Shown here: positions 43,571 through 51,000 of the stretch, piece by piece | Layout of the letters: every line of letters begins with the position of its first letter | Position numbering within the stretch: the stretch's first letter is position 1 | Notes under the pieces: model-generated | What the model was told of the DNA's origin: nothing | Seen by the model: the letters and a program-made list of their open reading frames with translations, nothing else | Databases searched by the model: none | NCBI RefSeq assembly: GCF_002797675.1 | Contig: NZ_PGEX01000001.1 | Coordinates: 3,038,001-3,102,000, forward strand | DNA: 64,000 bases | Direction of reading: 5' to 3' | From: Hallerella succinigenes | Lineage (GTDB): Bacteria; Fibrobacterota; Fibrobacteria; Fibrobacterales; Fibrobacteraceae | Program-made: the position numbers and the translations under genes

Positions 43571-44914
43571 TTAACGGAATTCGACGCGAATTTCAGTTCC
43601 CACGCCAACCGTCGAATGCAAAACGATTTTTGCCCCATGGACTTCGGCAATATGCTTCACAATGGCAAGACCTAAGCCCGTGCCGCCTGTCGCCTTGGAA
43701 CGGCTTTTGTCCACACGGTAAAAGCGTTCAAAAATACGCGGCTGATTTTCTTCGGGAATTCCGATGCCCGTATCTTTGACTGTAAAAGTTTTGTTCCGCA
43801 CCAAGACCTGCACATTTCCGCCTTCTTCCGTATAACGGATGGCGTTATCGATCAGGTTATAGAACATTTCAAAAAGTAAACGGGAATTCCCCTGGATTTC
43901 AGAAGCCTCTTCGACTTTCAAAGAAACTGGCACCTTCTTCTTTTTCGCATTCAAGGAAAGCTCCTCGATGCAGTTCAAAGCGATCTTTTCAAGGTTCACC
44001 GATTCTTTCAAGTCCAAGGATGCATTCGGCGCATCCAGTTTCGAAAGCGTCATGATATCGTTTGCAATCGAAAGCAAGCGATTCGCTTCCTTGTGAATTT
44101 TCCCTGCAAAGTCTTTGATGTCTTCGGGCTTCGCGATGCCACTTTCGATGAGTTCTGCATATCCCGAAATAGACGTAAGCGGAGTTTTCAATTCATGCGA
44201 TGCGTTTGCGGTAAATTCATCGCGCATCTGTACCGTTTTAAGCTTTTCATTCGAAAGCTGTTCCACGGTATTCTGCAGTTCACGGTTCTGTTCGCGGATC
44301 GTTTTCACAAGCGGAGCGATTTCCGGGTAAATGCCCTCGTCATCCATCAGCTCGGGCTGTCCCAAATTTTGAGCGAGCTTCTGCACCGGCCGCACAAAGG
44401 CGCGCCCAAGTCCAAAAGCGAGCAAAATAGCCGCAAGGACAATCGCCAGAAGCAAAGCGAGCAAATACGGCATCGTCTCGGAAAAGGCTTCGTGCAAGCT
44501 TGCCTGTTGACGGCTCAAACGCAAAACCTTTCCATCCTTCAGCCGAATGGCGCAGTAAAATTCATTTGCATTCGACGTTACCGAATACCGAAAATCTTCG
44601 CCAAAGCCTTTGGTAAACGCTTCCACGACTTCAGGGCGATTTTTATGATTTTCCATTTGCGCCGTTTCTGCATTGCTTTCAAAAAGCACGTTTCCCGGTT
44701 CATCGATCAGGGTAATGCGCAAACTGTCACTCGCATACGGTGCGAGAGATTCTGCATTTTCATAAGCCAGTGCAACGATATGCGCCGTTTCACGCAAATC
44801 GCCTTTCAGCTGCTCGGTCATTTCTTTTTCAAAGACCTGCGACGTAAAATACACCGCAAACAGAGCAGCCAACACTCCGACATAAATCAGACTGAATCTT
44901 AAACTGTTCTTCAT
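43571..44914 (-). CDS. phoR: Phosphate-responsive sensor histidine kinase (PhoR-like)
   Basis: 447 residues: N-terminal membrane helix, ~130-residue periplasmic sensor region, second membrane helix (LLALLLAIVLAAILLAFGLG), a HAMP-like linker (VRPVQKLAQNL), HisKA with phospho-His in ANASHELKTPLTS and HATPase motifs FYNLIDNAIRYT, DTGIGIPEE and GGTGLGLAI. The start overlaps the response regulator stop (ATGA), so the pair is coupled. Assignment to PhoR rests on the regulator type and on the phosphate transporter heading the operon; the sensor domain is larger than the minimal PhoR. Confidence 0.88.
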   Translation of the reverse strand: MKNSLRFSLIYVGVLAALFAVYFTSQVFEKEMTEQLKGDLRETAHIVALAYENAESLAPYASDSLRITLIDEPGNVLFESNAETAQMENHKNRPEVVEAFTKGFGEDFRYSVTSNANEFYCAIRLKDGKVLRLSRQQASLHEAFSETMPYLLALLLAIVLAAILLAFGLGRAFVRPVQKLAQNLGQPELMDDEGIYPEIAPLVKTIREQNRELQNTVEQLSNEKLKTVQMRDEFTANASHELKTPLTSISGYAELIESGIAKPEDIKDFAGKIHKEANRLLSIANDIMTLSKLDAPNASLDLKESVNLEKIALNCIEELSLNAKKKKVPVSLKVEEASEIQGNSRLLFEMFYNLIDNAIRYTEEGGNVQVLVRNKTFTVKDTGIGIPEENQPRIFERFYRVDKSRSKATGGTGLGLAIVKHIAEVHGAKIVLHSTVGVGTEIRVEFR

Positions 44915-45582
44915 TCTGCTTTATACCCCACGTTTCGAACTGTCTGGATCAAAAAAGCCTGTTCGCCGAGTTTCTGTCGAAGCGTTTTCACATGCATGTC
45001 TACGGTACGCGTGTCCATATCAAAATCAATCCCCCAGATTTTTTCAAGAATCTGCTGTCTCGAAAAAACAATTCCGGGATTTCCAATCAGGAGCTTTAAG
45101 AGTTCATATTCTTTGAACGTGAGTTCCACCGGATTTCCGCCTACCGTCACCGCATGGCGTTTGTCGTCAATACTCACGTCTCCCAAAGAGACCTGCACAG
45201 CATCTTCCGCACGCCCCTTTCCAAAACGGCGCAGAACCGCTCTCACGCGGGAAATCAATTCAAGGATTCCAAAAGGTTTTGCCATGTAATCGTCTGCGCC
45301 GAGGTCCAAGCCCTTGACCTTGTCGAGTTCCGTTCCTTTGGCGGTCAACATAATGACTGGAATATTCCGCGTATTTTCTTGACTGCGGAGTCGCTTGAGA
45401 ATGCTCAAGCCATCTTCTCCTGGCAACATGATGTCCAAAATAAACAGCTCTGGAAGATCCATTTTTAACTGTTCGTCCATCGCCTTTCCGCAGTCAAAAG
45501 CCATGACTTCAAAGCCACTGCTTTTTAAAGCGTAGCTTTCCATTTCACGCACTTCCGCATCATCTTCTACGATATAAATCAT
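44911..45582 (-). CDS. phoB: OmpR/PhoB-family response regulator
   Basis: 223 residues from the ATG at 45582 (MIYIVEDDAEV), which overlaps the transporter stop by ATGA; a longer reading would begin inside the transporter gene. Receiver: acidic pair EDD, phospho-Asp in LFILDIMLPGEDG, Lys in AKPFG. The winged-helix output has LTFKEYELLKLL and DTRTVDMHVKTLRQKL. With its kinase and the phosphate transporter it forms a probable PhoBR system; four TTTACA repeats upstream of the operon are its candidate binding site. Confidence 0.92.
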   Translation of the reverse strand: MIYIVEDDAEVREMESYALKSSGFEVMAFDCGKAMDEQLKMDLPELFILDIMLPGEDGLSILKRLRSQENTRNIPVIMLTAKGTELDKVKGLDLGADDYMAKPFGILELISRVRAVLRRFGKGRAEDAVQVSLGDVSIDDKRHAVTVGGNPVELTFKEYELLKLLIGNPGIVFSRQQILEKIWGIDFDMDTRTVDMHVKTLRQKLGEQAFLIQTVRNVGYKAE

Positions 45583-47837
45583 ACGTTTGCCGCTGAGGTT
45601 TGAGGTTTCACCGTTAAAAATTTTTTGCTGGCTTTGGCAACGGAGCAGACTGCATCGATCAAAGCCCAAGACTCATAAAGAATAGTTAAATAAAGTATTT
45701 CGGAACGAATGTTCTCGGAGCTTTTCCGCATCATTTCGGATTTACGCTCTGCAAAAAATTTCGAACCTTCCGCACGGAGCTTGTCTCGCACGGCGTCGTA
45801 AAGTTCAAACTGCATCGATTCTACCATGTCGGCGGTTTCTTCGACAAGGGCCTTTACCCTTATTGCCGAACGCAGTAAAAATTTCCGCTTATCGTTCCCT
45901 TCAATGACGCAGAACGCATTGTCTACGTGCATTTTGCAAGACGAAGAGATTTGCTGTAAGCAGAAGAGAGCGTCTCCCATGAAATCATTTGCCTGGTAAA
46001 GGAAGAAGTTTTTCACAACCATGTCTTCTTGAGCAAGGCGTTCCGTGCAGAGCGAACCATGGCGACGGTTCCGTTCGATGTGCTTTTTCAAAATCTTAAT
46101 TTGTTTGTGTACCGAGCGGAGTTTGCTTAAGTCTTCCCGCAAAAAACCGACAATGATTTTTTCGTAGCAGTCCGCACTCCAACGAAGGACTTCACTCCAT
46201 TCGCCACGGCTGTAATCCTGAATTAACGGGTAAACCTTGGTTTCGGGACTTGCCGCTAGAATCTTTTCAAAGCGTTCCGCCGTTTTATCCTTTTTATTTT
46301 CACGATACTTGAGATTTGAGCGCACCAGAATAAAAATCACCACGGCAAAGAGTGCAAAAATCACCGGAAGGCCGCCAAAGTAAAGCACAGAAGCAACCAG
46401 CGAAGCACTTGCAAAAGCGGCAAACGCGGTCAAGAACCAGCCACCGATCACCGAAAGCACTCCCGTAATGCGATAGACCGCCGTTTCACGATTCCAGGCT
46501 CTATCTGCAAGGCTTGTACCCATCGCCACCATGAAGGTAACATAGGTTGTCGAAAGGGGAAGTTTTAACGATGTGCCAAGCGCAATCAAGGAACTGGCAA
46601 GCATCAAGTTCACACAGGCGCGCAGCAAATCAAAGGCCGCCCCATCCTCTTCCAAGATCATTTCCTTCGTATTGAAGCGCTCTTCAATTTTAGAAGAAAG
46701 GCTTTCCGGAATTCGAGCCGAAATGAACTTTGCAACGCCGTTCGAGCCACGGACCAGAGCTCTCGCCACCGGATTCGTTCCAAAGATTTCATCGGAAGAA
46801 GTCTGCGAAGCGAGCGATACCGAAGTCTGCACCACCTTCTTTGCCTTTTTCGAAAAAACGAGCGAAATCACCATGGTAACTCCGGCAATCATCAACAAGT
46901 ACCACTGCCCAGGTTCCGACTTGAGCAAGAACGCCATATTGTAATTCGCCGGCGTTCCCGAATCTTCAAGCAAATGCTGCAACGAAGAAAGGCTCGTCAG
47001 CGGAACGCCCACAAAGTTCACCAGGTCGTTTCCCGCAAAGGCGAGAGCCAGCGAGAAAGTGCCAAACGCAATGATCAACTTCAGCACATTGACTTTGATC
47101 GCATGCAAAAGATGGCAAAGCAGAAAGAATCCAACAAACATGAAAACAAGCAAAGCTCTTTCGTTTTCCGCCATAAAAGCCCTGTAGCCATCACCCACAA
47201 AGCTCATGTTCTTCAAGCCCTTCACAAGGATAAAGTAAAAGATCGAGGTCAGGGAAATACTTCCAAAAATACCGACGAAATACCGCAGATTCTTGCGATA
47301 CCCGAACGAAAATACAAGGCGCGTCACATACTGCACCGCAAGCCCCACCACAAAAGCGATCGCCACAGAAAGGAAAATGCCCATGATCACGGTGAACGCT
47401 TTCGTCGTATTGATCAAATTCCCCAGTTCCAAAGTATCATCGCCGATAATTTTTATGCAGGCAATCGCCACCGAGGCGCCCAACAGTTCAAAGACCATCG
47501 AAACCGTTGTCGAGGTCGGCATCCCCAGCGTATTGAAAATATCGAGCAAAATCACATCGGTAAACATCACCGCAGCAAAAACGCACATCAGTTCCGCAAA
47601 GGTGTAATACTGCGGCATGTAAATACCATGCCTTGCGATATCCATCATTCCGCTGCTGAACGTCGCTCCGCAAAAAACGCCAATCGCTGCAAAAACCATC
47701 AACGTTTTGAATCGGAACGCTTTACAACCGACAGCCGAACTCAAGAAATTGACCGCATCATTGCTCACGCCCACAAAAAGATCAAAAAGGGCTAAAGTTA
47801 AAAGCATGGCTACAAGAATTACGTAAAAAGTCATCAT
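45579..47837 (-). CDS. pit: PiT-family inorganic phosphate transporter with C-terminal PhoU-like cytoplasmic domain
   Basis: 752 residues. Two PiT signature repeats: GVSNDAVNFLSSAVGCKAF with LGMPTSTTVSMVFELLGASVA in the N-terminal half, and KLPLSTTYVTFMVAMGTSLADRAW in the C-terminal membrane half; about ten membrane segments. Residues ~520-745 are soluble and helical, with spacing like PhoU domains. Such long PiT proteins are known outside Proteobacteria. It probably imports phosphate or metal-phosphate and its tail may signal to PhoR. It is first in the operon with phoB and phoR. Confidence 0.9.
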   Translation of the reverse strand: MMTFYVILVAMLLTLALFDLFVGVSNDAVNFLSSAVGCKAFRFKTLMVFAAIGVFCGATFSSGMMDIARHGIYMPQYYTFAELMCVFAAVMFTDVILLDIFNTLGMPTSTTVSMVFELLGASVAIACIKIIGDDTLELGNLINTTKAFTVIMGIFLSVAIAFVVGLAVQYVTRLVFSFGYRKNLRYFVGIFGSISLTSIFYFILVKGLKNMSFVGDGYRAFMAENERALLVFMFVGFFLLCHLLHAIKVNVLKLIIAFGTFSLALAFAGNDLVNFVGVPLTSLSSLQHLLEDSGTPANYNMAFLLKSEPGQWYLLMIAGVTMVISLVFSKKAKKVVQTSVSLASQTSSDEIFGTNPVARALVRGSNGVAKFISARIPESLSSKIEERFNTKEMILEEDGAAFDLLRACVNLMLASSLIALGTSLKLPLSTTYVTFMVAMGTSLADRAWNRETAVYRITGVLSVIGGWFLTAFAAFASASLVASVLYFGGLPVIFALFAVVIFILVRSNLKYRENKKDKTAERFEKILAASPETKVYPLIQDYSRGEWSEVLRWSADCYEKIIVGFLREDLSKLRSVHKQIKILKKHIERNRRHGSLCTERLAQEDMVVKNFFLYQANDFMGDALFCLQQISSSCKMHVDNAFCVIEGNDKRKFLLRSAIRVKALVEETADMVESMQFELYDAVRDKLRAEGSKFFAERKSEMMRKSSENIRSEILYLTILYESWALIDAVCSVAKASKKFLTVKPQTSAANV

Positions 47838-47921
47838 AAAAACCTCTTGCTATTAAGGTAAAATGACGCCAAAACAACCTCAAGTGAACAAAGCAAGGAT
47901 TTCCAAAGGTTTTATTCTCCC

Positions 47922-47959
47922 TTTACAAATAATTTACCCGACTTTACATAGATTTTACA
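47922..47959 (-). promoter_or_regulatory. Candidate Pho box: four TTTAC(A/C) repeats at 11-10-11 bp spacing
   Basis: TTTACA at 47922, TTTACC at 47933, TTTACA at 47943 and TTTACA at 47954 (plus strand). Read toward the transporter the units are TGTAAA separated by about 11 bp, the helical pitch used by PhoB/PhoP tandem sites. They end ~85 bases before the transporter ATG, and ~100 bases before the divergent gene at 48063. Confidence 0.6.
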
Positions 47960-48062: not shown

Positions 48063-51000
48063 ATGAGGTATTCGGTGAGTCGATTTTTTGTTCTGTTTTT
48101 GTGTTTTTCTTGTTCCGTGCTCTTTGCCCAGGTCCGTTTTCCCCATGGATCTGGTGTCGTAGACATTACTAAAGCTCCCTATAACGCCAAAAATGACGGT
48201 AAAACAGATATTACCGATATTTTGCAGCAGGCTTTGGACGACCATCCGAACGGAAACTACATCATTTACCTTCCCCACGGTAATTACCTTATTTCTAAAC
48301 AAATCAGCTGGCCGCAGGCGGAAAAGGAAAAAGAATCCTATCGCAGAACGATCCTTCAAGGCGAAAGCATGGGCGGAACGATTATCACCATGCAAAACGA
48401 AGCCTATGGATTCGATAATCCAGACGCTCCCCGAGCCATGTTCTACACCGGCATGGGCGACTATTCACATGAACGAAACGCCATCCGTGACGTTACCATG
48501 CACACGGGTAAGCGCAATCCGGGTCTCATCGGCATTCGTTTTAACGCAAGCTACCAGGGAAACATTACCAATGTGAAAATCATTTCCGATGACGGCAAAG
48601 GCGTAGCCGGTATCGACATGAATTATACAGACAACATCGGTCCGCTGTACATCAAGAATGTGGAAATCCGCGGTTTTGACGTCGGTATTCTCACAGGTTT
48701 CCCCATGTCGGGCATGACGCTTGAACACATTTCTCTTCAAAACCAAAAGAAATACGGTATCGAAAATCACGACCAGGTTTTGACTATCCGCAACCTGAGA
48801 AGCCGCAACTCCGTTCCTGCCATTGCGAACTTTGGCGAAAACGCACTGCTCACAATGATAGGCGGCGCCCTAGAATACAACGGCAAAAAGAAGCCGAATA
48901 TTCCGGCGATTTACAACGAAGGGTATCTCTTTGCCCGAGACATTGCTACGAGCCGCTACGCCCAGGCGATTGAAGAACGCGGCCCTGCAAGCGGTGAAGG
49001 CCTCAAAGGCCCGGAAATCATTGAATACTCTTCCGATATTCCGACCAACCTTTGTCATTCTCCGCAATATTCCTTTAAGCTTTCCGTCGCCGAAACCCTG
49101 ATTCCGATGGAACAGGATGCAGACCAGTGGGTCGGCATTCAGGGCGATTACGGCGCAACCGCCGGAACGGGTAGCGACGATTCCAAGTCCATTCAGCAGG
49201 CGATCGACGACGGTGCAGAAACCATTTACTTCACCCCGGGCGGCCGTTACACCATCAACCGAGATATCCATATTCGCAACCGCGTCCGCCGTTTGATTGG
49301 TACCGAAGCAACCATCGACGGAACCGGCAAATTCATCATCGAAAACAGCGCATTTAAAGAAATCACTTTCGAACGTTTTGCCGAATTCGGCGCAGGTATT
49401 GTCCACAAGGCTCCGCAGACCTTGATCTTAAAGAATATGAAAGTCAAGGAATACGAAAGCGCCCCGAAAGGCGCGGGCGACCTTTACATGGAAGACATCG
49501 CCATCAACCGACTCGTAATCAACCTGCAACATGTCTGGGCTCGCAGCCTTTACATGGATAACGACATCAAAACAAAGATTGTGAACAACGGCGGCACCCT
49601 TTGGGTACTCGGCCTCACCGCCGCAAACGGCAATACGGTGCTGCACAACCGCGACCACGGCGAAGCGGAACTTCTCGGCGTCCATGTGATTTCAAACCGC
49701 AAAGCAAAGCTTTACCCGATGTTTGTCAATGATAGCGCAAGCCTCTCCGTGGAAGGGCTCCGCGAATCCTTGATGCACGGGAACGCCTTCCCGAAAATCG
49801 CCGAAGAAACCCGCAACGGCAAAACCAAGATTCTCGAATCCAAGAACCTCTTAAAGAATCCGTCCGGCGGTACCATGATGACGCTCTTCGTCGGCTATGT
49901 TCCCAAAGTAGGCTCGAACGAAGCTCCGGAAGTCGAAAGTGCAGAAGACATGATTCTTTTGCAGTCCGACAAGGCAAAGCTTTCTGGCAAAGTCTATGAC
50001 GATGGCCGCGGAAGCAAAGGTTACTGCATCGATCCGGTCGTTTGGAAAAAGCTTTCCGGTCCGGGCAAGGTCGTTTTCTCGGACGAAAAGGATTACGAAA
50101 CCGATGTCACATTCTCTTACAGCGGGCGTTATAACATCACCTTTACCGCAAATGACGGCGAGCTAAAAGCCACCGACACAACGCACATCTACGTCTTTGA
50201 CCTGCGCACGACCACCAAGGACCACAGCGGAAACGGCGTAGCATCGGGGCGCGGCATGGATACCTGGATTTCGGAATTCGACGGCTACATGACTCACGCA
50301 GACGATTCGCTTTTGCAAATCGGTTACAGCAAGGAGGGTGCAAGCGCAAAGATCTACCTCAAGTTCGATGTTTCCGCCATTCCGGGCCCGATTTCCGATG
50401 CGGCCCTGCAGCTCTCTGTTCCAGAGGATCCGCGCTACAAAAACAAGAAGCAACCGGTTCTTTGGAACGTCTTCGGTCTTTTGGAAGAACCGGGCAAGGA
50501 TTTCGGTGACGGCATCGCTCCTGCAGACTGGCAAGAAACCGAAATTACCTGGTACACGGCTCCTGCAAACCAAGACGGTCCGGGTGGCGCATACGTTCCC
50601 AAAAAGAGCCGTGGTGGTGGAATCGATCCGCGTTACACGACCTTCCTCGGTACGATTAAACCCAATCCGAATGCCGCTTTCGGCACCTTCCTCAAGAGTG
50701 CAGCCCTCACGGACTTCATGAAACGCAAGCACAAATCAAAGCTCTTCACGTTCATTCTTTCGGCTGTCGCTCCAAGCGATTCAAGCTATTACGTTTACTC
50801 GCGCGATGCGGGCAAAGATGTCGCCCCGGCGCTTTACATCAGCTATTTCGATTCGAACCGAACCGTCAGCGGTGCGCGGACCGAAAGCGCGATCCAGCTG
50901 TCGAAGGTGAACATCAACATCGTTTCACTCGACTGCAACTTTGATTTGACCATCGGCGAACCGCAGTATGTGAAAATCGAAATTTTTAACGAATCGGGAA

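Follow-up and report, generated by a model that had tools for sequence, protein, structure and literature searches.

A candidate Pho box of four tandem TGTAAA-type units upstream of the pit-phoB-phoR operon of Hallerella succinigenes

Results

In the 64,000-nucleotide stretch of the Hallerella succinigenes genome that was analysed (the window), three overlapping genes related to phosphate uptake and sensing are located on the minus strand. The first gene of the operon, pit (45579..47837), encodes a PHO4-family phosphate transporter of 752 amino acids (PF01384, E 5e-22, with matches in relatives). It is followed by phoB (44911..45588), which overlaps the end of pit and codes for an OmpR/PhoB-family response regulator of 225 amino acids (PF00072 and PF00486), and by phoR (43571..44914), coding for a histidine kinase of 447 amino acids with an sCache-like sensor domain (PF00512, PF02518 and PF16736). 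The top NCBIfam model for the regulator was TIGR02154 PhoB, with 231.9 bits (under the cut-off of 296.2), and those for the kinase were PnpS and PhoR, both under the equivalog cut-off. The first-pass annotation had proposed a Pho box upstream of a pit-phoB-phoR operon, and these gene assignments agree with it. The last approximately 425 residues of the Pit protein fall outside the Pfam PHO4 match. A divergent gene encoding a pectate-lyase-like protein begins at position 48063, and no RNA family was detected when the window was scanned with Rfam.

The candidate Pho box (47922..47959, minus strand) consists of four direct units located 85 bp from the start of pit and about 104 bp from that of the divergent gene. 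On the plus strand these units read TTTACA (47922-47927), TTTACC (47933-47938), TTTACA (47943-47948) and TTTACA (47954-47959). Four TTTACA repeats had been described previously at these starts; three of the copies are exact and the second one carries one mismatch, whereas the steps of 11, 10 and 11 bp were confirmed exactly by reading the sequence. On the coding strand of the operon the units are TGTAAA (47959-47954), TGTAAA (47948-47943), GGTAAA (47938-47933) and TGTAAA (47927-47922), and the whole array is TGTAAA-N5-TGTAAA-N4-GGTAAA-N5-TGTAAA. With up to three mismatches allowed, this four-unit pattern was found once in the window and never in 100 dinucleotide shuffles, and a search of the whole genome (3,127,022 bp) also yielded a single match, compared to none for the reversed control pattern. 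The exact pair TGTAAA-N5-TGTAAA has only one occurrence in the 3.13 Mb genome, which is the pit array.

The array was found again upstream of pit in all five of the same-genus genomes, as well as in two other relatives, G017 and the metagenome-assembled genome Fibro_02, whose Pit proteins are 73% and 82% identical, respectively, to that of H. succinigenes. When the regions preceding pit in six genomes were aligned, the four GTAAA cores proved almost invariant within diverged flanks. The 11-10-11 spacing is kept in H. succinigenes, G002, G003, G017 and Fibro_02; in G004 it is 11-9-11, with CGTAAA as third unit, and in G001 and G005 it is 11-11, the units becoming less recognisable beyond the second or third. 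Among the six genomes of the genus, exact TGTAAA-N5-TGTAAA pairs occur 12 times, nine of them just upstream of pit homologues. The remaining three all belong to G005, where an identical TGTAAACAATTTGTAAA is present at C64:59020, C92:18507 and C116:6508 (L049, L057 and L059), and they probably represent a repetitive element and not Pho boxes. When the flanking DNA of pit homologues was examined, seven homologues without the array also lacked an adjoining phoB. However, it is pit and not phoB that the array accompanies, because the pit gene of G017 and the second pit gene of G001 have it with no neighbouring phoB.

Just downstream of the array, a promoter-like block ATAAAACCTTTGGAAA (47900..47915, minus strand) is near-invariant in the six aligned regions upstream of pit. 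Two candidate -10/-7 elements are found on the minus strand in this block, ATAAAA (47915-47910), which is the better conserved of the two in the alignment, and just after it AACCTTTG (47911-47904), which begins 16 bp after the start of the last unit. At this same distance the elements are TTCCTTTG in Bacteroides pit, CATCTTTG in Bacteroides phoB and TATTTTGC in Escherichia coli pstS, and the block is in register with the Bacteroides TTTG elements and with the TATTTT of E. coli pstS. The 16-bp spacing is thus common to pit, Bacteroides and E. coli pstS if AACCTTTG is the -10 element, and it is not conserved at the pst locus of G001 and G005. The distance between the last unit and this element would fit an activator bound beside RNA polymerase.

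A general role of the Bacteroidota-type word TAnnTTTG as a Fibrobacter promoter was considered and rejected, since 116 upstream regions showed no enrichment of it (14 sense and 12 antisense occurrences, against 9.3 in shuffles, sd 2.8). The sample for these promoter statistics was ten 20-kb stretches of the same genome. The words TATATT, CTATAT and GGCTAT were over-represented upstream of genes in the window and in these stretches (L229-L238), a hint that the -10 element of this genome may be TATATT-like. As TATATT-like words are enriched and TAnnTTTG is not, AACCTTTG has been kept as one of two candidates.

The first-pass annotation had named the absence of such repeats before other phosphate genes as part of the grounds for abandoning the proposal, and the search for them gave a favourable result at the pst locus. 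In this locus pstS is encoded on one strand and the genes for a beta-barrel-like protein, PstC, PstA, PstB and PhoU are divergently oriented. The intergenic region carries TGTAAA-type units at 0, 23 and 34 bp toward pstCAB and a mirror set toward pstS in five same-genus genomes. In H. succinigenes these units score 17 of 18 matches, and 5,000 shuffles reached 16 at most. The pst arrays are degenerate, and their spacing to the promoter varies in G001 and G005. The beta-barrel-like protein encoded between the divergent pstS and pstC (L085:2422-3435; G000:C1 about 1075921-1076934) has 337 amino acids and no Pfam match, and it may be a phosphate porin. Pairs of TGTAAA with one mismatch were found 27 times in the genome versus 18 for the reversed control; this excess is modest, so a wide regulon with the exact TGTAAA unit is not visible. 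A genome-wide regulon list from patterns with one or two mismatches was dropped, as the counts barely exceeded those of reversed controls.

Apart from Fibro_02, named genomes yielded Pit homologues with an identity of 41-47%, most of them from Bacteroides and its relatives. In 72 Bacteroidota regions upstream of pit, TGTAAC was the direct hexamer repeat seen most often at 10-12 bp, being present in 15 of them, with no hexamer above 0.3 in shuffles. In these regions TGTAA pairs are separated by 11, 22 and 33 bp, and the units are placed at -53, -42, -31 and -20 relative to TTTG. The 72 regions are related to each other and these counts are therefore not independent; a genome-wide search with the layout is a better test. 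Carried out in six Bacteroidota genomes, this search produced 26 matches, compared to two for the reversed control. The 12 exact matches were the six pit sites themselves, five phoB genes and one site before a gene of unknown function, and the 14 matches with one mismatch included ppk, alkaline phosphatase, pstS, a Porin_O_P protein and a calcineurin-like phosphoesterase. Altogether, layout matches were located at phoB in five of the six genomes, with single ones at ppk, alkaline phosphatase, pstS and a phosphate porin.

In B. fragilis, PhoB binds the pst promoter, and pstSCAB, alkaline phosphatase, polyphosphate kinase and a phosphate/sulphate permease are among the genes that depend on it (PMC3547664). 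Most of the gene types recovered with the Bacteroidota layout are thus PhoB-dependent in this bacterium; no Pho box consensus was found in the text of that study.

Two side observations concern the Bacteroidota comparison. In two Bacteroidota genomes, a Pho-box-like array is followed directly by the gene for a protein of unknown function of about 292 amino acids (L181:1584-2459, with a counterpart in L184), which is a candidate for an unrecognised member of the Pho regulon. The similarity of Pit to Bacteroides-group proteins (41-47%) extends over almost the full length, and many closer relatives have no match to Pit; an exchange of pit between gut phyla is possible.

Discussion

The array upstream of pit consists of tandem direct units with a pitch of about 11 bp, as in PhoB/PhoP-type operators, and this arrangement is kept in relatives. 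It is placed in the promoter region of phosphate-acquisition genes (pit-phoB-phoR, with pstS and the putative porin-pstCAB-phoU genes elsewhere in the genome), and a PhoB-family regulator is encoded in its own operon; the unit is TGTAAA and not the CTGTCAT of the E. coli type. Taken with the pst arrays, the conservation across the genus and beyond, the TGTAAC/T arrays of Bacteroidota and a geometry that is probably that of E. coli pstS, these features support the candidate Pho box that had been proposed. The array is very probably the operator of pit-phoB-phoR, to which the PhoB of the same operon would bind to activate it at low phosphate, and this regulator probably acts on pst too.

One or more different OmpR-family regulators could bind the array, its place before a phosphate operon being incidental. 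Tandem sites near an 11-bp pitch are commonly used by OmpR-family regulators, and the PhoB encoded here scores under the NCBIfam equivalog cut-off. However, the array is present at pit and on both sides of pst, phoB itself lies within the operon, and the matching Bacteroidota layout picks out known types of PhoB targets and phoB, which makes another regulator improbable. It is even less likely that the array governs the divergent pectate-lyase-like gene instead of pit. The two gene starts lie at comparable distances from the array and the lyase gene still adjoins it in G002, G003 and G004, but the array has remained next to pit in G017, Fibro_02, G001 and G005, where the lyase gene was not found beside it, and the conserved promoter-like block is on the pit side. 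Such a short and AT-rich unit might suggest that the repeats arose by coincidence in AT-rich DNA, or that they form an UP-like element to which no specific regulator binds, but this can practically be discarded for an array that is absent from shuffles, unique in the genome and near-invariant amid diverging DNA.

The PhoB operator reading leads to the following model. When phosphate is scarce, PhoR would phosphorylate PhoB, and two PhoB dimers would bind head-to-tail to the four TGTAAA units, on one face of the helix and adjoining the promoter. Bound PhoB would recruit RNA polymerase, and pit would be switched on together with phoB and phoR through autoregulation. The divergent promoters of pstS and of the putative porin-pstCAB-phoU genes are probably under the control of PhoB too, via weaker three-unit arrays. 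In this model, the established features of the DNA are the array itself, how rare and how conserved it is, its association with pit and pst genes and the fixed distance between it and the promoter-like block, and from them we infer the binding of PhoB, activation as the direction of regulation and the dependence on phosphate.

An open-access literature search found no Fibrobacter Pho boxes or promoters, no description of the TGTAAA unit or of the layout shared with Bacteroidota, and no Bacteroidota Pho box sequence. What is new is the TGTAAA unit for Fibrobacter-like bacteria and a layout shared across phyla. Fibrobacter-like gut bacteria thereby gain a Pho box that can be tested. Bacteroidota, in which the importance of PhoB for growth and survival is already established, gain a layout that matches it, and the phosphate regulons of both groups become predictable from sequence.

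Compared to known systems, the Pho box of E. coli pstS also has four direct units at 11 bp (TGTCAT, TGTCAT, TTACAT and TGTCAC, from the E. coli record), and its -10 element begins 16 bp after the start of the last unit, like the candidate AACCTTTG at pit. The pit array differs in its central step of 10 instead of 11 bp, in the -10 sequence and in the unit, although the difference from CTGTCAT pointed out previously is limited to the 3' half (TGTAAA versus TGTCAT). The PhoP box of Bacillus subtilis consists of tandem TT(A/T/C)ACA units, often four, with spacers of about 5 bp. The plus-strand TTTACA of three of the four array units would fit this consensus, Bacillus being a member of a different phylum.

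The Bacteroidota Pho promoters of pit, phoB, pstS, ppk and phosphatase genes resemble the pit array in their tandem TGTAAC/T units with an 11-bp pitch, and in the 20 bp that separate the last unit from TTTG. They differ in the sixth base of the unit (C/T and not A), in the central step of 11 bp and in phoB, which is located elsewhere in the genome with a separate array. A shared recognition helix was rejected as the reason for TGTAAA: the helices differ (RTVDMHVKTLR in Fibrobacter and RTIDVNITRLR in Bacteroides), and for this reason no recognition code is proposed. Tentatively, and at somewhat less than even chance, Fibrobacter-like bacteria and Bacteroidota may have a common ancestral Pho box of four TGTAAA/C units, the last of them 20 bp before TTTG, in which the 10-bp central step of Fibrobacter would set the two PhoB dimers slightly differently from those of E. 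coli.
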